Part shown: positions 14,091 to 52,591 of the stretch, piece by piece
Position numbering within the stretch: the stretch's first letter is position 1
Layout: each line of letters begins with the position of its first letter
Virus record (IMG/VR): IMGVR_UViG_3300008954_000029
Location: 20,663-84,662 of that record
Direction: 5' to 3' (one strand)
Length of the DNA stretch: 64,000 nucleotides
DNA from: a virus
The notes under the pieces: model-generated
Database searches by the model: none
The model's input: the letters and a program-made list of their open reading frames with translations, nothing else
Told to the model about the DNA's origin: nothing
Position numbers and translations under genes: made by a program

Positions 14091-14145
14091 ACTTCCTCCT
14101 GTGGTAAGTTTATAGTAACACGAGTTATTAGGAATTTAAATGGAT

Positions 14146-15738: not shown

Positions 15739-15743
15739 GCTAC

Positions 15744-15751
15744 TAAATAGT
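15744..15751 (-). promoter_or_regulatory. ACTATTTA gene-boundary motif
   Basis: Coding-strand ACTATTTA between the amidase stop codon and the next ATG (15738), 5 bases from TATTTA to the start. Confidence 0.45.
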
Positions 15752-15752
15752 T

Positions 15753-16658: not shown

Positions 16659-16668
16659 TTTTAAACAA

Positions 16669-23641: not shown

Positions 23642-23850
23642 CTTACTTTTCTCCCATCATCAAGGGTAAATTCGAAAACCTTTTTCACTCCGTTGTGATG
23701 AACTTGCTCGACCGGAATGAAGATGTCTTCACCGGTGTCTTCGTCTCGGGAGCGGACAATGTCTCCTACTACAACGTCGCCAATTTGCTTATCAGCAACC
23801 TTTCCCTTGTCTTTATTATAAATAGTAACCTTTTCAGAAAAAGACAAACA
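23554..23850 (-). other. N-intein segment of split DnaE intein
   Basis: Codes for the last 98 residues of the N-terminal gene. Block A begins CLSFSEKVTIYN with the catalytic Cys1; block B is visible as DGRKVRCTMDHKFRT with the conserved T-x-x-H. The frame ends ERELEIV then a stop, as natural N-inteins do. Confidence 0.92.
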
Positions 23851-35785: not shown

Positions 35786-35797
35786 GGACAAAAAGGG

Positions 35798-35870
35798 TGG
35801 AGCCGGAGGGACTTGAACCCACGACATTCACGCTGCCAGCGTGACGCTCTCCCAACTGAGCTACGGCCCC
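35798..35870 (-). tRNA. tRNA-Ala(GGC)
   Basis: A 73-nt cloverleaf: acceptor GGGGCCG with CGGCTCC, D arm with AGCTCAGTTGGGAGAGC, anticodon stem TCACG/CGTGA around loop CTGGCAG (anticodon GGC), and GGTTCAAGTCC T arm. CCA is not encoded; a T-run follows. Confidence 0.95.
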
Positions 35871-35880
35871 TTTTCACCCT

Positions 35881-35888
35881 TAAATAGT
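35881..35888 (-). promoter_or_regulatory. ACTATTTA motif upstream of tRNA-Ala
   Basis: Coding-strand ACTATTTA between tRNA-Ser and tRNA-Ala, with TATTTA ending 10 bases before the 5' end of tRNA-Ala. Confidence 0.5.
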
Positions 35889-35926
35889 CGGCCCCTTTTA
35901 AAGGTTCCTTAATTGTATGATTGCGG

Positions 35927-36014
35927 CAGAGAAGGAGGGATTCGAACCCTCGGTACGCTTTTGACGCACACACGATTTCCAGTCGTGCACCTTCGGCCTC
36001 TCGGTCACTTCTCT
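35927..36014 (-). tRNA. tRNA-Ser(GGA)
   Basis: An 88-nt cloverleaf with a long variable arm: acceptor AGAGAAG with CTTCTCT, anticodon stem CACGA/TCGTG around loop CTGGAAA (anticodon GGA), T arm GGTTCGAATCC, discriminator G. Confidence 0.95.
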
Positions 36015-36042
36015 ATAAGCCAGAATTCATGTTTTTCAAAAG

Positions 36043-36116
36043 TACGCCCGGTAGGAATCGAACCTACAACCGATGGGTTAAAAGCCCAGTGCTCTGCCTG
36101 GTTGAGCTACGAGCGC
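36043..36116 (-). tRNA. tRNA-Lys(TTT)
   Basis: A 74-nt cloverleaf: acceptor GCGCTCG with CGGGCGT (wobble pairs), anticodon loop CTTTTAA (anticodon TTT) on the stem CTGGG/CCCAT with one mismatch at the base, T arm GGTTCGATTCC, discriminator A. Confidence 0.92.
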
Positions 36117-36127
36117 TTACTCCCCAA

Positions 36128-36475
36128 CTATCTTGACGACATCGCCGTCTTCGTCTTACCTTCCCAGATACTATTCTTGACCTTAATGGTCACATGCCAT
36201 CGTTTATGAACTTCTGAAGCGATCCTCTCCTTCAGCGGCACGGCCATTGTGTGCGTCAGCCTGGTGTTGAATGGGGGCTCTTGTTGAATAATGACCAGCT
36301 TCACTTCTGCGTCGAGCTCAAGGAACTTGTATTTTACACCCTCCTTTTCAAATAGTCTAGCACTTTCCTCTCCGCAAATAACCTCTGCTAGAGCTACCTT
36401 TTGTACAAAACTCTTGTGCTTCTCTCTTGCCTTAAGATCCGCTCGTGTCGCCATAAAAAGTGTTTCCTTCTCCAT
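36128..36475 (-). CDS. Hypothetical protein within the tRNA cluster, 115 aa
   Basis: The gene lies between tRNA-Ile and tRNA-Lys. Start taken at the ATG at 36475 (GGTGAGG 8 bp upstream); the ATG at 36454 is an alternative. The N-terminal part is a charged helix (TRADLKAREKHKSFVQKVAL), the middle has beta-like FLELDAEVKLVIIQQE, and the end is basic. No known family is recognised. Confidence 0.6.
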   Translation of the reverse strand: MEKETLFMATRADLKAREKHKSFVQKVALAEVICGEESARLFEKEGVKYKFLELDAEVKLVIIQQEPPFNTRLTHTMAVPLKERIASEVHKRWHVTIKVKNSIWEGKTKTAMSSR

Positions 36476-36528
36476 TAACTAGACCTCACCAAGTTCTTTG
36501 CGCACCAATTAAATTTTCAACTTCCAAG

Positions 36529-36601
36529 TTGGCCCACCGGGACTTGAACCCGGAACCGCCCGCTTATAAGACGGGTGCTCTAACCCTTGAGCTATGGGCC
36601 A
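36529..36601 (-). tRNA. tRNA-Ile(TAT)
   Basis: A 73-nt cloverleaf: acceptor TGGCCCA with TGGGCCA, D arm AGCTCAAGGGTTAGAGC, anticodon stem CCCGT/GCGGG around loop CTTATAA (anticodon TAT, reading AUA), T arm GGTTCAAGTCC, discriminator A. Confidence 0.95.
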
Positions 36602-36609
36602 GTATCGGA

Positions 36610-36647
36610 AAACGGGGCCGACAACTGTCTCGCTCCCGACCCCGTTT
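36610..36647 (-). promoter_or_regulatory. Hairpin in the leader of the tRNA-Ile transcript
   Basis: An 11 bp stem (AAACGGGG arms at 36647-36637 and 36620-36610, one G-U pair in RNA) with a 16-base loop lies between the promoter at 36656 and tRNA-Ile. The 3' arm ends in four U residues. It could be a weak terminator/attenuator or a processing signal. Confidence 0.55.
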
Positions 36648-36655
36648 ATGTTACT

Positions 36656-36684
36656 AATATATCAAAGTACCTTCTCTAAGTCAA
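36656..36684 (-). promoter_or_regulatory. Sigma-70 promoter of the tRNA cluster
   Basis: TTGACT (36684-36679), 17 bp spacer, TATATT (36661-36656) on the coding strand, about 55 bp upstream of tRNA-Ile. Confidence 0.8.
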
Positions 36685-36705
36685 GAGAAAAGTGCACTTT
36701 ACATA

Positions 36706-36831
36706 TTACTTTCCTTGACCTCGATACTTCTTCCTGTAGTGCTTGGACTGACCTTTGGGACCGGGGCGGCCCCACTTTGTGAACACACTGCAGCCCTGTC
36801 GGACCTTCTTCTTTTGTCCTCGATTCTTCAT
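36706..36831 (-). CDS. Very basic small protein, 41 aa
   Basis: A short frame starts at the ATG at 36831 with AAGGAAAACA upstream and ends with TAA. The product begins MKNRGQKKKVRQGCSVFTKW and continues GRPGPKGQSKHYRKKYRGQGK; about one third of residues are Lys or Arg. It looks like a nucleic-acid- or ribosome-binding peptide. It fills the gap between the 231-residue gene and the tRNA promoter. No family is recognised; the ribosome site and composition support it as real. Confidence 0.65.
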   Translation of the reverse strand: MKNRGQKKKVRQGCSVFTKWGRPGPKGQSKHYRKKYRGQGK

Positions 36832-36843
36832 TGTTTTCCTTTT

Positions 36844-37539
36844 TTAGTCTGAATTCTTCTTTAGTTTTGTAAGAAAGGAGTTGAGTACTCCTCTGTGGTG
36901 CCAGTAATACTTCGGCGTCTTGTTTTCAACTTGTAACTTTTCTTCGCGAATGCGAATCTCCCTTACGAGAGCATCTTCTTCGTTGATGTCACCGTTGATA
37001 ACTGGCTGGTTGGACTCTTCAACGATTTCGTAATCTTCGTCGAAGAAGGGGATGATGAACTTGCGGCCAGAGGAGTGCCTCTCCTGAGAGTAGAAGTCTT
37101 CACGGTCCTGGACGTCAGAACCAACAAGAGCAACGTCCCTTTCCTGGACCACCTTGTAACCTTCAATGTACTGAAAGCGCATTGATTCATCATCCCTCTT
37201 GATCCCCCAGATTACAGACTCTTGTCCGAAGTCCTTGCCAAGGTTCATAATCTCGGACTTTGTGATGTTGGGAACAAGAAAAGAGTTTTCAAGATTGCCG
37301 AACTTTCCCTTGATCCTGATGTAGCCCAGATTCCTCTCGCGCAGACGTTCTTGGAGAAGCTTGTTACGCTCTTGATTCTCTTGTGGATTCAGTTGGTTGC
37401 CGTCAGGGTTCTCTGCGGTGATGAATCCAACTGTATGGACGTTAGGGACGGAGCCCATGAGCATGTTGGCGATGCGAGGAAACCCCGACTCTGTAATCAA
37501 GGTCTTTCGCCAACTTTCCATAATTTCTCTCATTATCAT
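36844..37539 (-). CDS. DUF3293-like hypothetical protein, 231 aa
   Basis: The segment VHTVGFITAENPDGNQLNPQ, then NKLLQERLRERNLGYIRI and NSFLVPNITKSEIMNLGKDF with QESVIWG, resembles the DUF3293 family (aITAxNP...N...L...GyxrxxG...E.SflV). The C-terminal third is acidic. Function unknown. The ATG lies 7 bases after the TATTTA of an ACTATTTATA motif; a second ATG two codons on is also possible. Confidence 0.6.
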   Translation of the reverse strand: MIMREIMESWRKTLITESGFPRIANMLMGSVPNVHTVGFITAENPDGNQLNPQENQERNKLLQERLRERNLGYIRIKGKFGNLENSFLVPNITKSEIMNLGKDFGQESVIWGIKRDDESMRFQYIEGYKVVQERDVALVGSDVQDREDFYSQERHSSGRKFIIPFFDEDYEIVEESNQPVINGDINEEDALVREIRIREEKLQVENKTPKYYWHHRGVLNSFLTKLKKNSD

Positions 37540-37546
37540 TGTCCTA

Positions 37547-37554
37547 TAAATAGT
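37547..37554 (-). promoter_or_regulatory. ACTATTTATA gene-boundary motif
   Basis: Coding-strand ACTATTTATA (37554-37545) four bases after the upstream stop codon, with the next ATG at 37539. Confidence 0.45.
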
Positions 37555-37557
37555 TGC

Positions 37558-37680
37558 TTATTCTTCTTTGCTCTCGTCTTCTTCCTTGGGCAAATAGTTG
37601 AGGTTTGCGACCACAAATACTATAATACCACCGATGATTGACAAAGTCAAGAACAGATTACGAATTGTCTCAAGCAACAA
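37558..37680 (-). CDS. Single-span small membrane protein, about 40 aa
   Basis: No ATG is near; tandem TTG codons at 37680/37677, overlapping the end of the previous gene, are the likely starts. The product has one membrane segment (LFLTLSIIGGIIVFVVANL) and an acidic tail (KEEDESKEE). The longer open frame to 37764 is covered by the preceding gene. A holin-type or other small membrane role is possible but unproven. Confidence 0.45.
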   Translation of the reverse strand: MLLETIRNLFLTLSIIGGIIVFVVANLNYLPKEEDESKEE

Positions 37681-38185
37681 TTTGGTATTCTTTATCTCCG
37701 CGATACTTGACAAACCAGTCGGGGACCTTACTCTTCGGGTATCGCATATTACTCTTGTTGGCATAATAACGACGGTATGACTCCACGATGTTGTCGCCTT
37801 TGAAATAATCAGGCATTGCCATCTTCAACGGAGTTGAAAAGTGACAATCAAAGTTGTCGCGGTCATACAAGGAGACGACCTGATCTAGCACGGCATCGCA
37901 CTTATGTGTCTTACCGAATCTCTCGGTATACTCCTCTAGCATCGCGGCGCAGTGAACAACAAGCGCCCTAAAGTTTGCTGAAGATTCAGCGGCCCATAAA
38001 CACGATGGGTGTTTAGGATTAAAAGATTTATAGGGTGCTTGGATCCCCTGCTCGTTCAAGACCGTGGAAAGGATCTGACAAGACTCCAAAATCATCTTGA
38101 CGACGCGCAAGTTATCTAGCGACTGTGCAGACTTGACCCAATCAACGTCGCCATCGTTATTGCTTTCAATGGCGAAAATGTTCAC
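37670..38185 (-). CDS. Phage conserved 'VVKMxLES' family protein, 171 aa
   Basis: A GTG at 38185 overlaps the preceding stop (GTGA) and gives MNIFAIESNNDGDVDWVKSA. The segment LRVVKMILESCQILSTVL and the later HPSCLWAAESSANFRALV resemble a family common in T4-like and cyanophages, in some genomes labelled pyrimidine-dimer glycosylase-like. I do not see enough to assign an enzyme activity. The longer frame to 38278 would lie inside the upstream gene. Confidence 0.6.
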   Translation of the reverse strand: MNIFAIESNNDGDVDWVKSAQSLDNLRVVKMILESCQILSTVLNEQGIQAPYKSFNPKHPSCLWAAESSANFRALVVHCAAMLEEYTERFGKTHKCDAVLDQVVSLYDRDNFDCHFSTPLKMAMPDYFKGDNIVESYRRYYANKSNMRYPKSKVPDWFVKYRGDKEYQIVA

Positions 38186-38472
38186 AGGATCATCTTCTTT
38201 ACTTGGTCGTAAGCGTCGATAAGAGCATCCATGTCCTTCTCGTTCTTGATCATCCGATAAGCCTTGACGGCGGCCCAAATCTCATCCTTGGTGAGGTACC
38301 CCTCCTCAATGTAAGACTTGCGCATGTCGCGCTTGTGCTCCTTGAAGGGCTCCATAGCGGCCTCGGTTTCCGCTAGGTCCTTCAAATAGTTCTTGACGTG
38401 CTCCTCCTTTGAAAGGACAACACCCTCTTCCTCATCATCCTGATAAGGCTCAATGTGCACTACGTTACTCAT
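38182..38472 (-). CDS. Hypothetical charged protein, 96 aa
   Basis: The sequence is rich in Glu, Lys and Asp; a motif like DDEEEGVVLSKEEHVKNYLK is followed by helices (KAYRMIKNEKDMDALIDAYD). No family is recognised. The start ATG directly follows the stop of the membrane-protein gene. Confidence 0.55.
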   Translation of the reverse strand: MSNVVHIEPYQDDEEEGVVLSKEEHVKNYLKDLAETEAAMEPFKEHKRDMRKSYIEEGYLTKDEIWAAVKAYRMIKNEKDMDALIDAYDQVKKMIL

Positions 38473-38667
38473 TTATTCTTCTCCTTTACTAATCCAATCG
38501 TCAATGGAAATCATCGACAGTGCGAAAGCCCCACCAACAAGGTACAGGCCCAAAACGAACTTTGCTGCTGCGGCAGCGTCATCAGTGGCGACCCAAAGAC
38601 TCGTAAACGATACGAGTACCCACAACAGGTTCGCCACCACTCTTCTACTATTTTTTGTCTTAAACAT
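38473..38667 (-). CDS. Small membrane protein with two predicted spans, 64 aa
   Basis: Start taken at the ATG at 38667 because AAGGAGGTTAGT precedes it; an ATG 69 bp upstream has no ribosome site and would overlap the previous gene. Two hydrophobic stretches (VVANLLWVLVSFTSLWVA and FVLGLYLVGGAFALSMI) suggest two membrane passes. Confidence 0.6.
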   Translation of the reverse strand: MFKTKNSRRVVANLLWVLVSFTSLWVATDDAAAAAKFVLGLYLVGGAFALSMISIDDWISKGEE

Positions 38668-38677
38668 ACTAACCTCC

Positions 38678-39151
38678 TTAGTTATTTTCGTAAGCAGCCA
38701 GGAGTTCAAAAGACTCTCGTGACTGCTTTTCCTCATTAGCCCTAATCTTCTCTAACTCGCCCTGGTAAATTCTTTCTCTTAACTCTGTCGTTGACCAACC
38801 GTGGTCTCTACTGTTGAAGTATACCTTAATTGGTAGGTCGTGTCCAGTAAAATCTTTACCCTTATGGTCGGCGCCTATAATGCGAACTTCCGGATTGATG
38901 AACCGGAGGAGTTCGTACAATTCCTCCTCGGTGCTGTACTCAACAACCTCATCCACGTGCCTAACTGCTCGCAATTGGATGCGGCGCTCGTCTAGACTCT
39001 GAACAGGCTTGTTCTTGGCCGGCCTATCAATGGTCGGATCCGTTTGAAGTCCGACAATCAGATAGTCACAAACAGAGCGCGCCTCTTGAAGCATCAGGAC
39101 GTGGCCTGCGTGAAGCAAGTCAAAGGCGCCGCAAGTAAATCCTTTATTCAT
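38678..39151 (-). CDS. Cytidylyltransferase-like (TagD/RfaE type) nucleotidyltransferase
   Basis: The 157-residue protein has GAFDLLHAGHVLMLQEA, with the HxGH active site, near residue 8, and WSTTELRERI near residue 120, the equivalent of the ISTT motif. It would attach CMP or ADP to a phosphorylated polyol or sugar (glycerol-3-phosphate, heptose-1-phosphate). GAGAGGGGAGTG precedes the start. It overlaps the DUF3310 gene by 8 bp. The substrate is unknown; surface glycan change or precursor synthesis are options. Confidence 0.8.
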   Translation of the reverse strand: MNKGFTCGAFDLLHAGHVLMLQEARSVCDYLIVGLQTDPTIDRPAKNKPVQSLDERRIQLRAVRHVDEVVEYSTEEELYELLRFINPEVRIIGADHKGKDFTGHDLPIKVYFNSRDHGWSTTELRERIYQGELEKIRANEEKQSRESFELLAAYENN

Positions 39152-39377
39152 CACTCCCCTCTCTCAATGAGATAAGCCTGTCTATGTAAAATCGTGCTTT
39201 TTTCAAGTCTTCAAGTGGTTTGTCTTTATGCTTGTGCCTTGTAACATACTTTACTACATTACCCTCATTAAAATCTAAATCCCAAGACTCGATGAAATCA
39301 ATAACTTCAATCCCCTTGTTGTAGTGCTCTGGGTGGAACACCATCTCCCTTTTCTTCGGCACGGTGTCTTCACTCAT
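39144..39377 (-). CDS. DUF3310 protein, 77 aa
   Basis: The sequence HPEHYNKGIEVIDFIES, then GNVVKYVTRHKHKDKPLEDL and KKARFYIDRLI, is characteristic of DUF3310, a small protein family frequent in phages and sometimes labelled nucleotide-kinase-like. Function unknown. It lies 14 bp downstream of the tRNA-Leu gene. Confidence 0.8.
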   Translation of the reverse strand: MSEDTVPKKREMVFHPEHYNKGIEVIDFIESWDLDFNEGNVVKYVTRHKHKDKPLEDLKKARFYIDRLISLREGSDE

Positions 39378-39391
39378 CGCACACTCCTCGG

Positions 39392-39473
39392 TAGGAAAGG
39401 CGGGACTCGAACCCGCAAGCCCGAAGGGCGGGAGATTTTAAGTCTCCTGTGTATGCCGTTCCACCACTTTCCC
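39392..39473 (-). tRNA. tRNA-Leu(TAA)
   Basis: An 82-nt cloverleaf with a long variable arm: acceptor GGGAAAG with CTTTCCT, anticodon stem GGAGA/TCTCC around loop CTTAAAA (anticodon TAA), variable hairpin GCCCTTCGGGC, T arm GGTTCGAGTCC, discriminator A. Confidence 0.95.
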
Positions 39474-41580: not shown

Positions 41581-41841
41581 TTAAACCCAAGTGGAAATAA
41601 AGCCTTTATTATAACTATTCCCAATCTCATAAGATAACTCGTATTCTCCAAGAACTTTGATTACAATTTCACGCATCTTTTCTGAAAAGCCAGTAACAAT
41701 GTGAATCTCTGTTTCGTCACCCCAGTGTGACTCTATGAATCGTATGCTGGCGCTTCTAACGTCTTCGTGCCTCATAGAATGTAAATCTAGTTTAGGTATG
41801 TCTTGATACGCGTTTCTTTGGAATCGCTTACGCCTTGGCAT
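41581..41841 (-). CDS. Smr-domain protein, 86 aa
   Basis: The protein carries LDLHSMRHEDVRSASIRFIE near residue 16 and EIHIVTGFSEKMREIVIKVL near residue 43, matching the Smr (MutS2 C-terminal) domain with its LDLHG and TGxG motifs, the second changed to TGF. Smr domains nick DNA or cut RNA. It overlaps the FEN nuclease gene by 14 bp, which supports a DNA or RNA processing role. Confidence 0.7.
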   Translation of the reverse strand: MPRRKRFQRNAYQDIPKLDLHSMRHEDVRSASIRFIESHWGDETEIHIVTGFSEKMREIVIKVLGEYELSYEIGNSYNKGFISTWV

Positions 41842-42802
41842 TGAAGTCTGAAATATTCCTCTTAAAGTTCTGGAACAGATCGTTCAAAGAAATTTCCCCG
41901 ATGCCGTCTTCAATCATCATCTTTCGCACTTGCGTCTTGTTCAGCATCGGCACAAAACTTCCAAGAACACTGTTAATGTTCTGCTTTTGTTGAATGGAGA
42001 TTGATGGTGCGTAAAGCTGCATTAACTTGTAGTTCTCACGAATAAGACTTTCGCCTTCAATAATGTTCGTGTGCGCACCCACCTTCTTTTCAACGCCCTC
42101 ACAATACTCAATCACCTCATCAATAGAATAGTCCTTCTCCTCAGCCAAAAACGAAAGACGCTTGGCTACGGTAGGGATTCCGACGCGGCCAACCCCGGGC
42201 AAGTTATCACTGGTGTCGCCGGCGATGGCGCGAGCCAAAGCAAAGTTGGTGGGGTGAATACCAAACTTCTCAACAACTCGCGTCTTGTTCAACATTTCCT
42301 TTTGGATAGGGCGATAAAGGACGGTTTCATCGTCCAGTAGTTGGATGAAATCCTTATCGGAACTGACGATGACCTTCTGCCAGCCCTTGTGCTCCGGATG
42401 GTTGACGACATAAGAAATGATGTCATCTGCCTCTACGTGATCCGAAACAAACTGAATCATCGGCATTTCATTGAGGTATTCAAACAGCCTCGTCTGTTGC
42501 CAGATCTTGTTGGCGATCTCCTCGTTCTCAGAGAGATTCCTGATGGTGCGATTGAGGCGGATGGGCTTGCGGCCTTCCTTGTAGCCCTTGTTGGTGCTCT
42601 TCCTCTTCTGAGAACCACCAGCACCGTCCCAGCAGACAACTATTTTGTCTGGCTTAATCTCCCTTACGAGACGGTTGGTAATCTTCAAAAAACCCTTCAA
42701 GCCACCAATAGGTTGTCCGTTTGAGGACAGGCTAGGGTCAACGATGTACGCCCTGATAAACTGATTCACAGCATCAAGAACGAGAAGTCTTTTCGCTTTC
42801 AT
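41828..42802 (-). CDS. 5'-3' exonuclease/FEN (T4 RNase H-like)
   Basis: The 324-residue protein has the FEN layout: LVLDAVNQFIRAYI (first Asp), VVCWDGAGGSQKRK, DHVEADDIISYVV and VIVSSDKDFIQLL (acidic metal ligands), then the helix-hairpin-helix region DTSDNLPGVGRVGIPTVAKR. It would remove RNA primers or 5' flaps, as T4 RNase H does. There is no attached polymerase. GGAAAC precedes the ATG. Confidence 0.92.
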   Translation of the reverse strand: MKAKRLLVLDAVNQFIRAYIVDPSLSSNGQPIGGLKGFLKITNRLVREIKPDKIVVCWDGAGGSQKRKSTNKGYKEGRKPIRLNRTIRNLSENEEIANKIWQQTRLFEYLNEMPMIQFVSDHVEADDIISYVVNHPEHKGWQKVIVSSDKDFIQLLDDETVLYRPIQKEMLNKTRVVEKFGIHPTNFALARAIAGDTSDNLPGVGRVGIPTVAKRLSFLAEEKDYSIDEVIEYCEGVEKKVGAHTNIIEGESLIRENYKLMQLYAPSISIQQKQNINSVLGSFVPMLNKTQVRKMMIEDGIGEISLNDLFQNFKRNISDFNAKA

Positions 42803-43710: not shown

Positions 43711-44832
43711 CTAAGCAGTTGCCTCGGTTTCAGCCTGTTCCTCTTCAAGAGCATAGAAGTCATCAGCCTTTCCAGTCTTACTCTCAAACTTGAGGATGAC
43801 TTCCTCATCCATCAATTGGAGCACACGCTTGCGGAACTTATCATCTTGAAGCTTCTCAAGCCAACCGGCCTTCTGAAACTTATCAACACTCCCATCCTCA
43901 TAGTGAAGGCTAAACCAGGCACCAGCGTTTGTCAATTGCTCGGAGGATTTGATTGCTTCAAACCACGACTCCTCGTCGCGGATTGCTACTTCCTCGCCTC
44001 CCCAGACAATCTTGAAGGTACAGACTCGACCCTGCGTCCCGAAACGAGACTTCTCAATCTTGGCTTTAACCTCCGAACCGACACGGAACCCATTCTCATC
44101 AGTAATGAAACTGGCCTTTGCCTTTCGTCCTGTGAGCCAAATACGTAATGAATACGAGTAGTTAAGAGCCTTGCCGCCGGGGGTGAAATAAGGCGTGGTC
44201 ATCGCCTCCGCAATGTTGGAGGTAATGTTTGTCTTCAACTGATTTAGAATCAAGAGCGTTGAAGAACTATTGGCGATTGGTTGCACCAACTTGGAGAGAC
44301 CCTTGGATAAGATCCTCGGCTTCACGGCCATACTGGAAAGAGGGTTAAAGTCGCCCTCAATATCGGATTTGCTCGGAGTAAAGGCGAGGCTGTCCCAAAT
44401 AAAGAGGAACTGATTACCAGTCCCAAGGAGTTCCTCAACGTATTCCAGTACGGACTCTACGCTCGTGGCTTGAACGTAAAGGACGCTATCAACGTCACAG
44501 CCTGCCTTCTCCAGGAAAGAAGAGTCTAGGGCCGACTCAGAATCAAAATAGACCACATCAATGCCCATCTTTTGAGCGTTGGCTGCGATCTGCGATGCCA
44601 TGTAGGACTTACCCGTTGATTCCAAGCCGGCGATCTCTGCGATCTTCCCCATGGGAATGCCAGCAGACTTACCTCGGCAAATAATCGAATCAAGCCAACG
44701 CGAACCAGTGGGGATCCACTCCTTCACATCTGTTGGGTTGTCTTCGTTTAGGTTATAGGCGACACTGCCGCCTGCCTTCTTGTTAAGCAACTTTCGCATT
44801 TCTGCGATGCTGACCTTCCCTGCTTTTGTCAT
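43711..44832 (-). CDS. RecA/UvsX-type recombinase
   Basis: The 373-residue protein has RecA features: TGSRWLDSIICRGKSAGIPM, Walker A GLESTGKS (69-76), VVYFDSESALDSSFL with the catalytic Glu-like position, Walker B FLFIWDSLAF, and LILNQLKTNI. It forms filaments on single-stranded DNA for strand exchange and recombination-dependent replication. The acidic C-terminal tail fits both RecA and UvsX. It overlaps the 152-residue gene by 4 bp and lies near SSB. Confidence 0.94.
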   Translation of the reverse strand: MTKAGKVSIAEMRKLLNKKAGGSVAYNLNEDNPTDVKEWIPTGSRWLDSIICRGKSAGIPMGKIAEIAGLESTGKSYMASQIAANAQKMGIDVVYFDSESALDSSFLEKAGCDVDSVLYVQATSVESVLEYVEELLGTGNQFLFIWDSLAFTPSKSDIEGDFNPLSSMAVKPRILSKGLSKLVQPIANSSSTLLILNQLKTNITSNIAEAMTTPYFTPGGKALNYSYSLRIWLTGRKAKASFITDENGFRVGSEVKAKIEKSRFGTQGRVCTFKIVWGGEEVAIRDEESWFEAIKSSEQLTNAGAWFSLHYEDGSVDKFQKAGWLEKLQDDKFRKRVLQLMDEEVILKFESKTGKADDFYALEEEQAETEATA

Positions 44833-45287
44833 CCGTCAATCCTCAAAGTTCCAACGTTAGTCTTTACGTTCGTTGACCACCCGGTAAAGAGGTTATCGGG
44901 AGCCTCCATAATGTCCGCGACAGTGGCACGAATATTCGCCTCCAAAGTCAAGAACCCTCGCTTGTAGTCGTACTGTTCCACGGTCCGGTCAATGAAATCA
45001 AACTCGTAGATGTTATCACTAATAACCTCTGCGACGTACCCATCAAACCAGCCGTCACGATCATAGCCATCCAGTTCCCCACGATCACGCAGGTCTTCCA
45101 GGGCCTCGTTCCTGAAACCGGGTGTGGTAATTACACCAGCCACAGTATCAGCGAAATCAGTATTAGCCAAAACGTCATCGACATACCCATCCCGGGCGTG
45201 GATAACATCCCCACCAACAGAATAAGTTAGTGTAAGTGTCTTGTCGTCAGGCAAATTAGCCTCTCGTAGCTTGCTTTGTAAACTCAC
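44829..45287 (-). CDS. Hypothetical acidic protein, 152 aa
   Basis: It starts at a GTG preceded by AAGGAGATAAA. The sequence is rich in Asp with beta-like segments (KTLTLTYSVGGDVI, RGFLTLEANIRATVADI). No family recognised. Its position between SSB and RecA suggests a replication or recombination accessory (inference only). Confidence 0.6.
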   Translation of the reverse strand: MSLQSKLREANLPDDKTLTLTYSVGGDVIHARDGYVDDVLANTDFADTVAGVITTPGFRNEALEDLRDRGELDGYDRDGWFDGYVAEVISDNIYEFDFIDRTVEQYDYKRGFLTLEANIRATVADIMEAPDNLFTGWSTNVKTNVGTLRIDG

Positions 45288-45359
45288 TTTATCTCCTTGT
45301 TTTGAAAGTTTAAAGGTTGAGACATCTATAACCCCATGCCTCCCTGCGGGGATTACCGA

Positions 45360-46118
45360 TTACTGCCCCAACAACTCGTTGAAGGCATCGTCTACCGAAG
45401 TAGCACCACCAGAGGCCTGCGGGCCGGTGCTGTACTGTGTAGTCTCGGTCGAAGCAGCCTCAGCGGACGCGTCCGTAGAGAGGAACTCGTCCAGCATTTG
45501 GCCCACCTCAGCGGGCGTCTTACGCTCGAAGAGATCGTCAAACACCGGGATGGATTCCAACCACTCGGTGGTCTGGCCATCGCCCTCTGTAAGCGCAGAA
45601 GACTTGCGACGGGGGGTGATCTTGGTCTGCGGGAACTGAGCGCCGGCAGGCTTACCGTAGTGGATCACCAAATCGGTGCCACTCTCAGGGTCAGTGATGT
45701 CACCGTAATCCGGATTCAGGACGAGGTTCAAGAGGTTCTGATAAACCATCTTGCCGTAGCCCCAGATCTGGACACCCTTGTCCTCCTCTCCGCGAACGAT
45801 GACGGGAGAGAAGAAGCGCTGGCGCGCCATGAGGTTCTTGGCCATCTTGATGGACTCCTCGTCACCCTCGTTGAAGAGTTGGCGAACGAACGAATCCAAC
45901 GGATCATCCTCGCCGAAGTTCTTCTTCGGAGAAAGGAACCCGGGGTTCTTACCAACGTTGTAGTGGAAAAAGAACTCCTTAAAGGGGTCACCATCTGCGG
46001 TGGGTAGAATACGAATGGTGGTTTCACCATCGTCCGGGCGCCAGAAGTTGCCCTTTCCGTTGCCGCGGTTTTCAATTGCAGCCTTCTTAGCTGCCATCTT
46101 GCTCATATCAATAGCCAT
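45360..46118 (-). CDS. Single-stranded DNA-binding protein (gp32-like)
   Basis: The 252-residue protein opens with a basic segment (DMSKMAAKKAAIENRGNGK) and FWRPDDGETTIRILPTADGD, typical of the phage gp32-like SSB OB-fold. A Lys/Arg and aromatic-rich core follows (FFFHYNVGKNPGFLSPKKNF), then a flexible acidic end (TSVDDAFNELLGQ) such as SSBs use to recruit partners. It coats ssDNA at forks. It has its own promoter and the ribosome site AAAGGAGG. Confidence 0.85.
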   Translation of the reverse strand: MAIDMSKMAAKKAAIENRGNGKGNFWRPDDGETTIRILPTADGDPFKEFFFHYNVGKNPGFLSPKKNFGEDDPLDSFVRQLFNEGDEESIKMAKNLMARQRFFSPVIVRGEEDKGVQIWGYGKMVYQNLLNLVLNPDYGDITDPESGTDLVIHYGKPAGAQFPQTKITPRRKSSALTEGDGQTTEWLESIPVFDDLFERKTPAEVGQMLDEFLSTDASAEAASTETTQYSTGPQASGGATSVDDAFNELLGQ

Positions 46119-46181
46119 GTTTTGCCTCCTTTGTGCGCTTAGCTATAGTATGGTTGGTCAATATCCCAACCATCTGAATAC

Positions 46182-46210
46182 AGTGTATCAAACAAAATCC
46201 CCACTGTCAA
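46182..46210 (-). promoter_or_regulatory. Sigma-70 promoter of the SSB gene
   Basis: TTGACA (46210-46205), 17 bp spacer, TACACT (46187-46182) on the coding strand; leader of about 60 bases. Confidence 0.8.
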
Positions 46211-47058
46211 GGATTATTTTCATTATTTTCTAGTTGTACTTTGGATGTGTATGCCTTGCAAAAGACATAGTCGTCTTCGTAGTCTGAGGGATAGACTGCG
46301 TATGAGACGCGTGTGTGTTCGGTGATTTTTGATTTCACCTGATTCTTTATCTTCTTAATGAGAGATCCGTCCGTTTCAAGTTTGCTTCGGTTGATAGCAT
46401 AATAATAAGTCTTTTCTCGCACCAAGTCAAGGGGGTAAAACAGGTTTTCTTCGCCTGTTTCGAAGTTCAGCGCCCCGATAGTCGCGATTCTGTTGACATC
46501 AAGCGGCTTTTGCGTGGTGCTAATTATTGGCGATGAATTGTCAAAAACGTTAATCATGTGCATGGTAGAGACAATAATGTCGTTTAGTGAATCATAGTAT
46601 TTGGCAATAGAAATGTCATCCAAAAAGTTTTCAATAACTGTATTATCCACTAAATAGACCTTTTTAAACACGCCCGATCTACCATACTCTTGCAGCACGC
46701 CGCGGAGGGCGCGCTCCTGGGCCCGGGCGGCCTGTGCTAACAATTCCAAATCGGGACGTACGTATAAAACGTTAACCGGACGTCTCTTGAGGTGCTCAAG
46801 GATCCACAAAGAAGCCCCGGGCGTATCGCCCGAGCCGGCAGTAGCAAACATCACCTCATCTTTGACGTTCTTGAAATACTCTGTTAAATCCTGAGAGTTT
46901 TCTTCGTATTCCCTAAAGGTCTCTCTTGCCTTAAGTTGATAATAGTTGAGTTGACCCTCATAGTTACTACTATCGATTTTGTAAACCTTATATTCTTCGT
47001 GCTCCCCGAAGCGAGACGCCAAGCTACAACCTGCCCCACCTAGACCTACTACGTTCAT
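46207..47058 (-). CDS. FtsZ/tubulin-like GTPase
   Basis: The 283-residue protein begins NVVGLGGAGCSLASRF, as in FtsZ nucleotide-binding loop 1, followed by VYKIDSS at the loop-2 position. Residues 69-90 read VMFATAGSGDTPGASLWILE, corresponding to the tubulin signature G-G-G-T-G-S-G but altered (GSGDTPG). The next strand, NVLYVRPD, and the helix with ERALRGVLQEYG also fit, as does VYLVDNTVIENF. It could form filaments, like the phage tubulins PhuZ and TubZ, but is shorter and divergent; filament formation or GTP use is not proven. It overlaps the MazG-like gene by 4 bp. Confidence 0.65.
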   Translation of the reverse strand: MNVVGLGGAGCSLASRFGEHEEYKVYKIDSSNYEGQLNYYQLKARETFREYEENSQDLTEYFKNVKDEVMFATAGSGDTPGASLWILEHLKRRPVNVLYVRPDLELLAQAARAQERALRGVLQEYGRSGVFKKVYLVDNTVIENFLDDISIAKYYDSLNDIIVSTMHMINVFDNSSPIISTTQKPLDVNRIATIGALNFETGEENLFYPLDLVREKTYYYAINRSKLETDGSLIKKIKNQVKSKITEHTRVSYAVYPSDYEDDYVFCKAYTSKVQLENNENNP

Positions 47059-47366
47059 TTATCAAACACTTCTTCTAGAATAATGCGGTCCTCAAACCTG
47101 CCGCGGCTATCGGCCTTAATCTGCTTGGCGGTCTCCACATCATACAAGCTGTAACCGTAGAATTGAACGATTGCATCCACAACCTCCAAAACATCGGCCG
47201 CCTCTTCCTCGCAAACATCTTTCTTGAACTCGGCGATTTCCTCGTCCAACTTGCTCCAGAGAGCCTCTTCGTACTCTTGTTCCGTTGCAACATGCATCGA
47301 GAACTTCTTTCCCGATTTACGAATAATTGTTGGAATCTTGTCTCTGACGAGCTTGTTATACTTCAT
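47055..47366 (-). CDS. MazG/HisE-like nucleotide pyrophosphohydrolase
   Basis: The 103-residue protein begins YNKLVRDKIPTIIRKSG, a hallmark of this small phosphoribosyl-ATP pyrophosphohydrolase-like family, and has the metal-binding pattern LDEEIAEFKKDVCEEEAADV, then LEVVDAIVQF (ExxE...ExxD). It would hydrolyse (d)NTPs or ppGpp-like nucleotides. It overlaps the PolA-like gene by 11 bp and the tubulin-like gene by 4 bp. Confidence 0.8.
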   Translation of the reverse strand: MKYNKLVRDKIPTIIRKSGKKFSMHVATEQEYEEALWSKLDEEIAEFKKDVCEEEAADVLEVVDAIVQFYGYSLYDVETAKQIKADSRGRFEDRIILEEVFDK

Positions 47367-48543
47367 ATCTTTTCATTTCTCCGAAGTTCTTTCCAATGCT
47401 AACATTTGTTCTGTACTCGCCAAGTTCGGTCGACGCGAACACCGATACCAGTTCGTGTAACAAACCGCGATCATCCAGCGACATGTCCAAAACCAAACTG
47501 TCGTGCATTGGAAAGGAAATAAATGTTTGCACTTCTTTTAGTATTTTATCAACTTTTACCATTTGTTTAAGCAATAAATCACTTGTTGTGCTCTGAATAA
47601 TATAATTCAACGCGTGGTGTTTGTCGCACGGAATCGTCCTACCAAAGAAGGTTGTCACTTCATCGCCAGTGAAATACTTCTCCACCACCGACTCACGGTC
47701 ATAAGTGCGATCCAATAGGCAATCTTTTGCTGCTGGATTGTACAACCACGCAAAGACTCTCTTCTTCGCCTCCTCTCGGGTCCCCATGCCTCGGAAAACG
47801 TTTTGGATGTTCCAATCGTGTAAGTCTTCTTGCGGCTGTTCTATTCCCGAGAGGGCCAAGAGGGTGCGCAACTCTGCCGCATTGAAATCTAGCTCAACAA
47901 AGCAATCATTCTTCGGTTTCAGGATCTTTCTATACGTCTTATCCATCGTCATGATGGGAAAACTGTTCTTCTTGGTTGAAAGTCGGCCTGTTTTGGTCCC
48001 GAAGAGGTTAAAATCAATATAATTGTTTGTCCGTGTCAATTTATTGACGAATTGACGCACTTTAAACTCATATAGGCGATCTTTTAGGGCATCTTCATCA
48101 ATATCAAGCTCATTTTGACGGATTTGGGCCAAAATAGCGCTCACATCCCTCAAAAAGTCGTAATTTTTGGGCTTTTCGTAAGTTTTCAGCACATATTTCG
48201 TTATTTCGTTCTTGATTTCGCAAAAATCCAACAAAAATCGCTGTGGAACAAGGTCGAAGAAGCAATTGTCGCTCAAAGAGACCTTCGATTCCCTGAAGGA
48301 GACCAGGAAAGCCTTTAACTTGGCACTTTTCTCATGCCAACCGTCCAGCAGATGTTCTGGGCACGCCTGATCAAGCGTCTGGCCGTTACAATACAGCCTA
48401 GCATACTCAATTTCGCAATCTCTCAGGAAGGACGCGTAGTCCCAAGTGCGTGTAAGGTCCTCGGGCAAGCTATCAAAGTGCAACTTGCCATCGACATACA
48501 CACCCACACAGGCACCTTTATCGTCTAAGGATTGAAAAATCAT
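47356..48543 (-). CDS. Family A DNA polymerase-like protein lacking exonuclease, altered motif C
   Basis: The 395-residue protein has polymerase-core landmarks: TGRLSTKKNSFP (183-196), motif A VELDFNAAELRTLLALSG (217-233, Asp219), an O-helix-like REEAKKRVFAWLYNP (256-270), LNYIIQSTTSDLL (312-324) and motif C FPMHDSLVLD (344-353). Pol I normally has HDE; here it is HDS, so the second carboxylate is missing. The N-terminal ~170 residues show no 3'-5' exonuclease motifs. With a C-family polymerase also present, this may be a repair or primer-processing enzyme, or a non-catalytic protein. Confidence 0.8.
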   Translation of the reverse strand: MIFQSLDDKGACVGVYVDGKLHFDSLPEDLTRTWDYASFLRDCEIEYARLYCNGQTLDQACPEHLLDGWHEKSAKLKAFLVSFRESKVSLSDNCFFDLVPQRFLLDFCEIKNEITKYVLKTYEKPKNYDFLRDVSAILAQIRQNELDIDEDALKDRLYEFKVRQFVNKLTRTNNYIDFNLFGTKTGRLSTKKNSFPIMTMDKTYRKILKPKNDCFVELDFNAAELRTLLALSGIEQPQEDLHDWNIQNVFRGMGTREEAKKRVFAWLYNPAAKDCLLDRTYDRESVVEKYFTGDEVTTFFGRTIPCDKHHALNYIIQSTTSDLLLKQMVKVDKILKEVQTFISFPMHDSLVLDMSLDDRGLLHELVSVFASTELGEYRTNVSIGKNFGEMKRYEV

Positions 48544-48559
48544 TAATACGTTCTTATAC

Positions 48560-49768
48560 TCAGGGCTCTTCCGTTAGATTCGGTTCCCAGGACCACCATC
48601 GGTTAGGGGTTAGATCTATGACCTTCTTGTTTATCCTCTTGACGACTTCTCGTTGCCCCAATGTCGGAAGTAGCTTGAGCATCTGTCTAATCATAACCTT
48701 TCTTCTAGGCTCTGTCAAGGGAATTCCTACCTCCCTGAGCCTTAGGTTGAAATAAGTTTGGACCCAATAAGAATCAGTATACTTGTTGTTGTAGTGTTGT
48801 GCGTCCAACATTTCTCTCGGTAATAATTGTGTATCGATTGTTGGACTATTTTTACAAAACTGTGTAGTCTTCCTAGTATACCTCGGATACCTGTCATAAA
48901 AGGCCTCGTAAGAAACTTTGAAGAACTTTTTCAACAAATTTATGTCACTATTATACACAAGATCGTAGTGTGTGTCAAATATATTCGAAGCAGACCCGGG
49001 CTTAAAATGAACTCCGTAGCTAGTTGCATACTTTTGCATAAAGGGGCTGGATAAGTCCGCGACGAAGCGCCATGGCGCATTCTTGTCTATCATAAAACCA
49101 TACTCTTGCGCAGTTTTGCGAATCAATTCGAAGTTCGGATCATCTATCCAAGAGCGCTTTTTGGTCTTGTCGTCAGCATGGCTTTCGATATCCACCTCTA
49201 TCATCAGACCTCCGATGTTCGGAATGGCATACTTGGATAGCACGAAAGAACTCTTGTTTATTGGCACAAAAGGAACTCTCTCATACAAGTACCTCAGGTA
49301 ATTCTTCATATACAAATCGAAGTTCATTATCTCATCCGCCCTATTCTTTGCCAAGATGTAGGTTTCAACAAAAGTCTTATCAAGGATTTCCAAATATTGA
49401 TAATAAGTATTCGTCGCACTCTCTGCGGCTCTTGTTATTTGCATGGGTGCATAGACAGAACCACGAGTATCAACATTGCCATAGGCGACACCTCTGCGTA
49501 GTGCATCACTCATAGCGACAAAAGCATCAGTTACAAAATTCACAGCAAAGTAGGTGCCGTTCAACGATGGCAATTGTGTCATCACTGACGGTTTTGGTGT
49601 TGCAGCATTCTCCACCCTGTCTATCTTGCCGTACAGGGGCTTGTCATACCACAGATCCAAACTCCTTGGGCCGGTGGTTGGAAATGCCTTATCCTTGTAC
49701 AACTTACGAAGAATGAATGTTTCTTCAGTTCCAAGGTCGTTTGTGGCGGTTGTCAAAATTTCTGCCAT
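48560..49768 (-). CDS. Probable structural/baseplate protein, 402 aa
   Basis: I do not recognise the family. Composition is Tyr- and Asn-rich with mixed strands, e.g. YFAVNFVTDAFVAMSDALRR and IGGLMIEVDIESHADD. It starts 2 bp after the 822-residue gene and ends before the PolA gene, at the end of the tail-gene block, so a baseplate or fibre-associated role is inferred from place only. Confidence 0.55.
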   Translation of the reverse strand: MAEILTTATNDLGTEETFILRKLYKDKAFPTTGPRSLDLWYDKPLYGKIDRVENAATPKPSVMTQLPSLNGTYFAVNFVTDAFVAMSDALRRGVAYGNVDTRGSVYAPMQITRAAESATNTYYQYLEILDKTFVETYILAKNRADEIMNFDLYMKNYLRYLYERVPFVPINKSSFVLSKYAIPNIGGLMIEVDIESHADDKTKKRSWIDDPNFELIRKTAQEYGFMIDKNAPWRFVADLSSPFMQKYATSYGVHFKPGSASNIFDTHYDLVYNSDINLLKKFFKVSYEAFYDRYPRYTRKTTQFCKNSPTIDTQLLPREMLDAQHYNNKYTDSYWVQTYFNLRLREVGIPLTEPRRKVMIRQMLKLLPTLGQREVVKRINKKVIDLTPNRWWSWEPNLTEEP

Positions 49769-49770
49769 AA

Positions 49771-52239
49771 TTATTCACCTTCATCTTCGACAACATCTGC
49801 CATGCGGTCTCTGAACGGCCTGGCGATCCTATAATCCGTGGACATCAAGTCCTCATCGGGATCGATAGAACTCTCCAATGGCATATGCCCGACTTCAAGT
49901 GGTACTGTCATCATCCCTCCGCCGGCCGCCCTGGCCTCGCGGAAGCCCACAACAGTCGGGGAGGCCTCCTCCGACGCGTCCTCGGTCTTGCCGAAGGTCT
50001 GCCAAGCACACTTCAAAGTGGTTGTGTATCCCCTATCTACACCAAATTCTGAGGTGACTGTTATTATATCGTAATAACCTCCCAGGCCAAGCAGTCTGGC
50101 CGTGGACGTACGACTCCTAAGACTCCCAAACCCAATCAAAGTTGGGTTAAGGTAAAGTTTTTGGCCGGGGCGAAACAAGAAAGAAGAGCCAATCAAATTG
50201 ATAGTGGCGTCGTATTTGTCCCTTAACTGACCTTCTTCTGCATCTTGCGAAGTCATCCTGGCTGCCCGCAGGTGAGGAATGTCTGTTTTAGAAAAATTGA
50301 TTGACTTTAAAATACCGCGGTCCGACCCCAAATGAAAATGGTAAATACCATCTTCCATGTCTTTCCCAACGAGGGTTGGGTCTCGGGAGACGGGTATCTC
50401 AACCGAGGCAAAGACCACAACGTATGGTTTCAACCCCGTTATTTCTTTCTTTCCGTCGAGAGACCTAACTAACTTCAACCTGTCGCCAGAATCTAGATCA
50501 ATCGTCTTAGTCGTCGAGGAGAGCGGACTAGCCAAGAAAGTTTGAATTCCTACCCGATTTCTGAATTTTAGTTTTTTATCAACACCCATGAACTCCCCAA
50601 GCGCAGCGAGGACTAGCTCGGACGTTGTGGAATTCAGAAAGCTCATGAAAGAATATGAATCCAGATTCCTTTTTCTAATATTCCTCTCAAACCAAACCTC
50701 AAAAGACTTCAAAGATATCGGAACGTCCGCCAGATTAATAATCCCCGATTCATACTTATCACCAACCTTCTTCTTGTATGTGAGGGGCCCGAGAATGACC
50801 TCAAAATCATCAAGCCCCTCCCTCTGGGCTTGGCCGGTCTCTTCAAAGTTAGACTCTATAATTTCTTTTGCAACCTGCACAAGATCTCCAAAATAAACAT
50901 AGGTCATTCTTGTGTTGCCTTTAGCCAAGGGCTTCGGGTCTGCCAGATTCATCCTCCTAGCAGTGGCGCCAAACGAACTTGCAAGCCCACTAGCAGTGGC
51001 GGCGCTTGCTGCGCGCGTCGTGGGGGTGTCTGAAGTAGGCACTGTAGTGGAGATACTAAACTCCTCTCCTCTTGCAAATTTCTCAACTTGGTCAGGCGTT
51101 AAGTCAATTATACGAATTCTGCTTTCGCCGGAGCGGGGAAGATAAAGTCTGTTTATTATCTGGGCATACTTTTGGGCTCTCAGTGGCTTTTTTAATTTTT
51201 CAACCCTTTCTTTAAGTTCTGTTATTGATTTTTGGACCTTCTCCTTGGCCTCTTTATCGTCTTCATCGAGACTTTCGCCTTCTTCTGATCTTGCCTCAAC
51301 TGCCTCCTCCAGACTATTGATGCGCTCTTGAAATTTGTTTTCCTCCGTTACTTTTAAAAGGTCATACGCCCGGGTGTCAGAAAACGCTCTTTCAAGGGCG
51401 CCCTGGTAATTACACAAAAGCACACCAGTACCATCTTGATTAAAATCAATACGATGATCAAGGAGATGTAGATAAATAAATTCTTGACTTTCCCTTAAAA
51501 CATCTTTCAACTTTTTATCAACAAGCTTCCCCTCTGGAACTGCCCAGCCGACTTGTGCCATCAACCTGAAACCAAAACGATTTGTTATTCTAGAGTAGGG
51601 AATTTCATCTCCTCTACTATCGTGTGTTTTAGCCGGGTTCTTCGTTCTTCTTAAAATCAACTCTATGTAGTCATGGTGTGAGGGGTCCTCTTGTATTGAC
51701 TGGGAGGCCAGCATTTCTATATTTTGAAAGAAGATCTCCAAGTCACACTTAACCAGGGCTCCCTCAGCCGGGTTTGTCCCCTGGGTCTCCACAGAAAAAC
51801 TTCTTATTCCAACGCCATCGCCGCGGCCCAAGCGACTTTCAGAGATAGATCCGATATCAGAATTGGTCTTATCTTCAAACTTCAGCTCAACTACTTTGTC
51901 TTTTTTTGATTTGTCACTCCCAGAATAAACCAAAAATAATCTAATGGTTGGAACAAGGGCGGCAATTTGGTACGGTTTAATTTGTAAAAATTGGTCAATC
52001 TCATCCCTTGTGGAGCGCCTCAACAGTTTGTTTAATAAAACTGCCGGTTCATTGGTTTTGACTCTCTTGATACTTTCATAATCAATGCCACTATTCTCAT
52101 TCGCAAAAAACTCCAAGTTTTGGAGGAGAAAGTTTTGAACGGCGGTGCGACGGGAGAGGGAGCGCTTAGCTGCGATGTCAGCTTCGTGGCGCTTGGCGGC
52201 TTCGAGTTGTTCGTGACTGGGAGTAAAAGGCATCACCAT
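49771..52239 (-). CDS. Probable baseplate/tail hub structural protein, 822 aa
   Basis: Start taken at the ATG at 52239 with GAGGT 8 bp upstream; an ATG at 52305 would overlap the LysM gene by 56 bp. A central coiled-coil (INSLEEAVEARSEEGESLDE) is flanked by beta-rich domains. The C-terminal part contains PGQKLYLNPTLIGFGSL, then LGLGGYYDIITVTSEF, a layout I associate with tail-hub and baseplate proteins. It sits between the gp53-like gene and the 402-residue gene. A precise T4 equivalent cannot be assigned. Confidence 0.6.
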   Translation of the reverse strand: MVMPFTPSHEQLEAAKRHEADIAAKRSLSRRTAVQNFLLQNLEFFANENSGIDYESIKRVKTNEPAVLLNKLLRRSTRDEIDQFLQIKPYQIAALVPTIRLFLVYSGSDKSKKDKVVELKFEDKTNSDIGSISESRLGRGDGVGIRSFSVETQGTNPAEGALVKCDLEIFFQNIEMLASQSIQEDPSHHDYIELILRRTKNPAKTHDSRGDEIPYSRITNRFGFRLMAQVGWAVPEGKLVDKKLKDVLRESQEFIYLHLLDHRIDFNQDGTGVLLCNYQGALERAFSDTRAYDLLKVTEENKFQERINSLEEAVEARSEEGESLDEDDKEAKEKVQKSITELKERVEKLKKPLRAQKYAQIINRLYLPRSGESRIRIIDLTPDQVEKFARGEEFSISTTVPTSDTPTTRAASAATASGLASSFGATARRMNLADPKPLAKGNTRMTYVYFGDLVQVAKEIIESNFEETGQAQREGLDDFEVILGPLTYKKKVGDKYESGIINLADVPISLKSFEVWFERNIRKRNLDSYSFMSFLNSTTSELVLAALGEFMGVDKKLKFRNRVGIQTFLASPLSSTTKTIDLDSGDRLKLVRSLDGKKEITGLKPYVVVFASVEIPVSRDPTLVGKDMEDGIYHFHLGSDRGILKSINFSKTDIPHLRAARMTSQDAEEGQLRDKYDATINLIGSSFLFRPGQKLYLNPTLIGFGSLRSRTSTARLLGLGGYYDIITVTSEFGVDRGYTTTLKCAWQTFGKTEDASEEASPTVVGFREARAAGGGMMTVPLEVGHMPLESSIDPDEDLMSTDYRIARPFRDRMADVVEDEGE

Positions 52240-52249
52240 TGGTATTACC

Positions 52250-52591
52250 TCATACTCCCAGCATCCCAAGCACTCTTTCGAGAGGTAATGGGATCTGTAA
52301 ACCATCGCCTAACTTTAAGTGATGTTCTGTGGGCGTCTGATTGAACCAAGCAATAACCCACCAAAGCCTTGGATCACCATAGTGCTGCTGAGCTAACTTG
52401 TAAAACCTATCTCCCGTCTTCCAAACATGGCCGATCATTTCCAAGGTCATTATTTGTTCTGTGGTCGGGTGTTTTAATGTACCAGTCCTGTATTGTTTTA
52501 TGAAATTGATGTTCCTTTTTATAAAGAAATCTTCATAAAGTTCATTATCGTTTCTGGCTATCTTTCTATTATCGTATCTCGTTATTGGCAT
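52250..52591 (-). CDS. Baseplate wedge protein with LysM domain (gp53-like)
   Basis: The 113-residue protein has an N-terminal ~50 residues followed by a LysM-type segment: HVWKTGDRFYKLAQQHYGDP then WWVIAWFNQTPT and LGDGLQIPLP. T4 gp53, which joins baseplate wedges, has the same N-terminal extension plus LysM-like fold. Length is half of T4 gp53. It lies between two tail genes. Confidence 0.75.
   Translation of the reverse strand: MPITRYDNRKIARNDNELYEDFFIKRNINFIKQYRTGTLKHPTTEQIMTLEMIGHVWKTGDRFYKLAQQHYGDPRLWWVIAWFNQTPTEHHLKLGDGLQIPLPLERVLGMLGV

Follow-up and report, generated by a model that had tools for sequence, protein, structure and literature searches.

The phage tubulins known so far are accessory filament formers of jumbo and plasmid-like phages. 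PhuZ/phiKZ TubZ, the spindle tubulin of nucleus-forming jumbo phages, retains the T4 signature and a catalytic Asp, forms filaments and belongs to the Chimalliviridae; it is present in 66% of chimallin phages, can be deleted and is regarded as accessory (PMC10299810). Assembly of PhuZ uses a C-terminal tail (PMC3678025), and that of TubZ needs a C-terminal helix or tail (PMC5322520). Here we compare these systems with a gene for a protein of predicted tubulin/FtsZ fold from an uncultured bacterial virus of aquatic origin, distantly related to phage T4. The window analyzed spans 64,000 nucleotides (positions 20,663 to 84,662 of IMG/VR record IMGVR_UViG_3300008954_000029), and coordinates are those of the window. 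Based on annotation searches, the virus record, of 84,662 bases, encodes a contractile tail, a gp32-type single-stranded DNA-binding protein (SSB), UvsX, a DnaB-type helicase, RNR and GroEL, and its main polymerase is DnaE.

The first-pass annotation had drawn attention to an FtsZ-like gene in an overlapping run with MazG-like and PolA-like genes. Its coordinates and the two stretches that it quoted, VVGLGGAGCSL and TAGSGDTPG, are all found in one reverse-strand open reading frame with an ATG start (table 1), which is joined to the MazG-like frame by an ATGA overlap, the MazG-like frame in turn overlapping the PolA-like frame by 11 nt. This open reading frame is a real gene, given its more than 580 relatives in IMG/VR and a dN of 0.075 against a saturated dS (~3) in comparison with an 86%-identical homolog; purifying selection on it is strong. 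A scan with the single protein recovered 14 IMG/VR relatives and a profile scan at least 589, and these proteins form an unnamed family, found in uncultured viruses of the Far-T4 type, that has more than 580 members. The window protein alone has no match in Pfam, PHROGs, NCBIfam, PDB sequences or cultured phages, in searches that included phmmer and hmmsearch runs on PDB and a tblastn search of 50,697 phage records, and no bacterial homologs were found in GTDB genomes. Nor did the literature searched contain a description of a tubulin or FtsZ protein from Far-T4 phages, and the paper on that assemblage (PMC4360716) does not mention either.

The resemblance to FtsZ that was noted at first could not be demonstrated by sequence searches, and it is clear only from the predicted fold. 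Among the 81 family members of alignment A2 (47% identical per column), a Pfam scan gave weak Tubulin matches for 8, the best of which (0.0086) falls well below the curated cut-off of PF00091, and TrkA_N matches for 18 (best 6e-5). The genome record itself has no match to PF00091. Because weak matches to both Tubulin and TrkA_N occur, sequence alone leaves the family undecided. In an hhalign comparison of the family profile with 30 nonredundant FtsZ sequences, the score was not significant (P 0.06), and the register was that which the fold predicts, pairing GSG with the T4 region, VDN139 with FtsZ IPND and N159 with FtsZ AND. No E. coli-type FtsZ was found in IMG/VR by an exact-pattern search, and most of the FtsZ matches in the phage collection seem to be host DNA that entered under poor annotation.

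An AlphaFold model of the window protein, built from A2 with no templates and no FtsZ in the alignment, reached a pLDDT of 93.0 and a pTM of 0.91. Foldseek searches of the PDB with this model returned 573 matches at E ≤ 0.001, of which the best 50 are all TubZ or FtsZ, with E-values from 5e-13 upward, TMq of 0.60-0.74 and full-length alignment over both domains. A second model, for the most divergent clade (first sequence L212), was likewise made without templates or FtsZ in the alignment; its pLDDT is 94.6 and its PDB matches are again FtsZ, TubZ and tubulin (TM 0.6-0.74). As the first-pass annotation had anticipated, the fold obtained is that of tubulin/FtsZ and not another, with a predicted nucleotide-binding domain, the core helix H7 and a second alpha/beta domain. 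With two confident models and their TubZ and FtsZ matches, the predicted tubulin/FtsZ fold is as well supported as prediction allows. Identity to any matched FtsZ or TubZ is 8-15% in the structure matches of both models.

With FtsZ, the cell-division GTPase of bacteria and archaea, the protein shares a fold of two domains built around a long core helix (TM up to 0.74); a GxGxxG-type T1 loop and putative base-contacting Asn residues of T6 and H7 are seen in most members. It differs in its low identity, in the absence of the T3, T4 and T7 signatures, and in its viral origin within a replication operon; judging from the topology and the order of its elements, H8, H9 and the partner peptide at the C-terminus of FtsZ would be missing as well. 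TubZ, the partition tubulin of plasmids and phages and thus also encoded by mobile DNA, provides the best Foldseek E-value (5e-13), but the window protein is approximately 100 residues shorter, and its predicted secondary structure contains no C-terminal helix or tail. PhuZ is similarly a phage-encoded tubulin fold; unlike PhuZ, the present family is without the signatures, is near-universal and occurs in viruses with a gp23 capsid of the T4 type. The closest viral predicted structures are BFVD FtsZ-like proteins of uncultured Caudovirales (A0A6J5RW92 and others, TMq 0.75), the top match being annotated as FtsZ in an uncultured phage; proteins of the A0A6J5RW92 type have 452 aa, however, and are 14% identical to the tubulin-fold protein.

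Several features of the family indicate loss of the canonical GTPase. The GAG-type gamma-phosphate loop T3, the T4 signature [SAG]GGTG[SAT]G (GGTGTG) and the T7 catalytic loop NxDxxD are each present in 31 of 31 FtsZ sequences and in none of 140 nonredundant family members, in a motif register set by hhalign and topology; position 187, the nearest to the T7 Asp, is E or D in only 100 of the 140. Conversely, a QEYxRS motif occurs in all 140 members and in 0 of 31 FtsZ. The T1 loop is of the GxGxxG type in 129/140, and the putative base-contacting Asn residues of T6 and H7 are widely retained (N139 in 129/140, N159 in 131/140), so that GTP binding is possible in most members on the basis of these two residues. 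The exception is the L212-L217 clade, which has lost its nucleotide-pocket residues: its T1 reads GIGxFCS, T4 reads GSE and T6 reads FDK or IDK, with the T1 AG and the T6 Asn gone. This clade nevertheless keeps Q123, Y125, R127, S128 and H167, and in the model it keeps the fold as well; the nucleotide loops are thus expendable, to the extent that the model holds. From the topology, the invariant residues would be remote from the nucleotide loops, some at the end of the helix before the N139 strand and others midway along the core helix.

The gene order across relatives is 844-aa protein, 402-aa protein, PolA-like, (MazG-like), tubulin-fold, SSB, UvsX and 5'-3' exonuclease. In 126 nonredundant loci in which PolA is visible, the tubulin-fold gene always shares the strand of the PolA-like gene, which it follows directly in 82; MazG intervenes in 35 and some other insert in 9. 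Most of the 82 direct junctions overlap by ATGA or approximately 10 nt. To avoid ascertainment on the tubulin-fold gene itself, loci with at least 900 bases upstream were also fetched with SSB alignments, and 109 of these 111 carry the tubulin-fold gene immediately upstream of SSB. The two exceptions, L376 and L410, have other open reading frames upstream of SSB in the short upstream sequence present. In L376, a 393-aa open reading frame (L376:138-1319) is found just upstream of SSB, at the expected place of the tubulin-fold gene. The PolA-like residues D219, R256, K260, Y268, H347 and D348, which belong to the active site, are invariant in 114 of 114 homologs. The MazG-like protein has invariant E42/E43/E46 and E55/D58, and its members match four sister all-alpha NTP-pyrophosphatase Pfam families (MazG-like, dUTPase_2, PRA-PH and MazG) at 0.005-0.03, which weakly supports its identity as MazG. 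Of the coupling to MazG and PolA that had been proposed, PolA-like stands as the constant partner and MazG-like as an optional one. A promoter-like site, TTGACA-17-TACACT (46210-46182, reverse strand), with a perfect -35 and an extended -10, overlaps the end of the tubulin-fold gene in a consensus scan. Given this site, SSB may have a transcript of its own.

Table 1. Tubulin-fold gene and neighboring features in the window.
Feature	Window coordinates	Strand	Evidence or remark
PolA-type 5'-3' exonuclease, separate gene	41828..42802	-	PF02739 2e-28
UvsX/RecA-like recombinase	43711..44832	-	PF00154 1e-35, phrog_97 5e-53
152-aa protein, no family match	44829..45287	-	minority of loci
gp32-like ssDNA-binding protein (SSB)	45360..46118	-	PF08804 8e-13, phrog_1192 5e-25
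Gap before SSB, 88 nt, promoter-like site	46119..46206	-	consensus scan only
Tubulin-fold gene, 283 aa, degenerate GTPase motifs	46207..47058	-	AlphaFold, Foldseek, >580 relatives
MazG-like all-alpha NTP pyrophosphohydrolase, 103 aa, optional cluster member	47055..47366	-	ATGA overlap with tubulin-fold gene; present in 35/126 loci
Short family-A DNA polymerase (PolA-like), 395 aa, without exonuclease domains	47356..48543	-	PF00476 (DNA_pol_A) 5e-14, phrog_17 1e-17
402-aa protein upstream of PolA, probably virion, no family match	48560..49768	-	conserved synteny
844-aa protein, probably baseplate, no confident family	49771..52305	-	conserved synteny

Gp23 was found in 8 of 12 large contigs. For the Gp23 of locus L177, which comes from the same record as L001, whose tubulin-fold protein is 100% identical to that of the window, the best named matches are Flavobacterium phage immuto, Microcystis phage Mel-JY01 and Rhodothermus phage RM378, ahead of cyanophages. 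Based on these matches, the group belongs to the Far-T4 assemblage (described in PMC4360716). The order from PolA to SSB-RecA is kept in immuto, in Mel-JY01 and in an uncultured phage of 484 kb, and the slot between PolA and SSB there holds a protein of 129-151 aa. Among 83 loci with this small protein, none has the tubulin-fold gene; a PolA-like gene lies directly upstream in 43 of 76 and SSB within 2 kb downstream in 62 of 75. When records with the tubulin-fold gene were searched whole for the small protein, six of seven showed no trace and one gave a nonsignificant match. Homology of the small protein to the second domain of the tubulin-fold protein was considered and rejected, as the hhalign score of 13.1 falls within those of column shuffles. 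The shared slot, the lack of detectable homology and the lack of co-occurrence therefore indicate that one PolA-coupled slot is filled by either of two unrelated proteins. The small protein is itself very common and, in many Far-T4-type loci, lies directly after a PolA-like gene; it has the motif HRKKESNTLYTINALN (L283:1346-1801, L282:6813-7256, L284:5374-5763 and L411-L490).

Other parts of the genome also merit description. The DnaE polymerase gene is fractured (21664-26379, reverse strand): DnaE-N carries an N-terminal split intein (CLSFSEKV...), DnaE-C is preceded by a C-terminal split intein (...GMLTSN/S), and between the halves is a free-standing gene of 335 aa, which probably encodes a homing endonuclease (phrog_559 is matched weakly), an arrangement that resembles the known fractured-gene split inteins of phage genes. 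A gene of the adenylosuccinate-synthetase family (28458-29450, reverse strand) has as its best PHROG 2-aminooxy adenylosuccinate synthetase (PurZ-type), and the PolA-like enzyme weakly matches the aminoadenine polymerase DpoZ (0.0014); given these two matches, a base-Z genome is possible. The tail sheath, of 988 aa (57998-60964, reverse strand), has Pfam sheath domains only in its C-terminal third (residues 695-979), which suggests a large insertion or extra domains. GroEL (12522-14090) and a ClpP-type protease (16669-17313) flank an amidase, and there is a five-tRNA gene cluster; the regions listed for this cluster and GroEL/ClpP are 12522-17313 and 35796-39473.

Because its frame overlaps with that of a polymerase with an intact active site, because it is near-universal and because it alternates with another PolA-coupled protein, we favor a role for the tubulin-fold protein together with the polymerase. 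We give an even chance to the hypothesis that it is a non-cytomotive accessory or scaffold of the Far-T4-type replication machinery. It would be made together with the PolA-like polymerase and would probably bind this enzyme, and possibly SSB, at the phage replication fork, the driving of filaments not being its role. Judging from the topology, binding would take place through the invariant QEYxRS and HMxNV residues, on a side of the GTPase domain that faces away from the nucleotide loops, and nucleotide binding, where kept, would be structural or regulatory. The partnership with the polymerase and SSB is suggested by the neighborhood, which does not prove it, and the gene could serve either the virion or replication, since it stands where these two groups of genes meet. 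A more specific proposal, which we hold tentatively and consider somewhat less probable, is that a tubulin fold that lost its GTPase now belongs to the viral replisome as a stable subunit. It would serve the PolA-like enzyme as a clamp, tether or scaffold and would be an alternative to the unrelated small protein that sister phages have in this slot.

The first-pass annotation had suggested a cytoskeletal element or a GTP-binding regulator tied to replication and drew a comparison with the filaments of PhuZ and TubZ. The tie to replication genes proved strict (109/111 and 117/126 loci). A GTP-driven filament, in contrast, is disfavored because the GTPase signatures are lost in all members and the nucleotide loops in one clade while the fold is kept, and the comparison with PhuZ and TubZ is not supported given the absence of T3, T4 and T7 in 140/140 members and of any predicted C-terminal tail or extra helix. 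Altered-motif proteins of the tubulin family can still polymerize elsewhere. Most members of the present family may likewise bind nucleotide or even polymerize, since they keep the T1 glycines and the two putative Asn residues, and replication sites may be surrounded by a noncanonical polymer with slow turnover. A true phage cytoskeleton, in which a nucleotide-driven polymer with a noncanonical catalytic site would form filaments that position or organize replicating DNA in the manner of PhuZ and TubZ, would fit the predicted fold, the retained T1 loop and Asn residues, and the replication-linked operon. We nonetheless consider it unlikely: beyond the missing signatures, the clade without nucleotide loops and the unpredicted C-terminal helix or tail that TubZ and PhuZ need for assembly (PMC5322520; PMC3678025), PhuZ is accessory and deletable (PMC10299810) whereas the tubulin-fold gene is near-universal. 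Centromere-like repeats are also lacking, as no tubC-like direct-repeat array was found in 45200-48700, where there is a single two-copy 12-nt repeat, and Pfam and PHROGs revealed no TubR-like gene among the neighbors.

Less probable again is a decoy of host FtsZ that would cap or poison host filaments and so stop host division during infection. The fold matches FtsZ across both domains, the T7 face is lost while the nucleotide (top) face is partly retained, as a capping subunit would need, and FtsZ is a target of other phages, as with T7 Gp0.4 (PMC13423816). One would expect a decoy to follow the interface of the host protein, however, and this is difficult to reconcile with 8-15% identity to any FtsZ or TubZ, with coupling to a polymerase gene rather than to early host-takeover genes, and with more than 580 divergent members that share an invariant motif unlike FtsZ. 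Slightly further down in probability we place a nucleotide-sensing regulator of dNTP supply that would act alongside other nucleotide enzymes, the MazG-like pyrophosphohydrolase among them. The ATGA overlap with the MazG-like gene is in line with such a role, as are the dCMP deaminase, RNR and thymidylate-kinase-like genes of the same genome, but the MazG-like gene is found in only 35 of 126 loci and its assignment from sequence is weak. We see hardly any chance that the protein is a plain Rossmann nucleotide-binding protein of the NAD/TrkA type and not a tubulin: the TrkA_N matches (18/81, up to 6e-5) outnumber the eight weak Tubulin matches, yet the full-length, two-domain match to TubZ and FtsZ (top 50 of 50, E ~1e-12) and the fold-expected register of the otherwise weak hhalign comparison with FtsZ (P 0.06) speak against this identity, and it was rejected on the predicted fold.

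The fold itself is known; the family represents a branch of the tubulin/FtsZ superfamily that has no name, is degenerate in its GTPase and is fixed in a replication operon. It is large, near-core in a group of uncultured viruses, tied to replication and devoid of GTPase signatures. If its members do not polymerize, the tubulin fold would be separable from the activity that defines it, and if they do, they would polymerize by a chemistry not yet described. If the replisome reading is true, this would be, to our knowledge, the first DNA-polymerase accessory factor of the tubulin superfamily, as opposed to its cytomotive filaments. A conserved gene of these viruses now has a predicted fold and becomes testable, and the findings suggest that a cytoskeletal fold has been reused in the machinery with which the virus copies its DNA.
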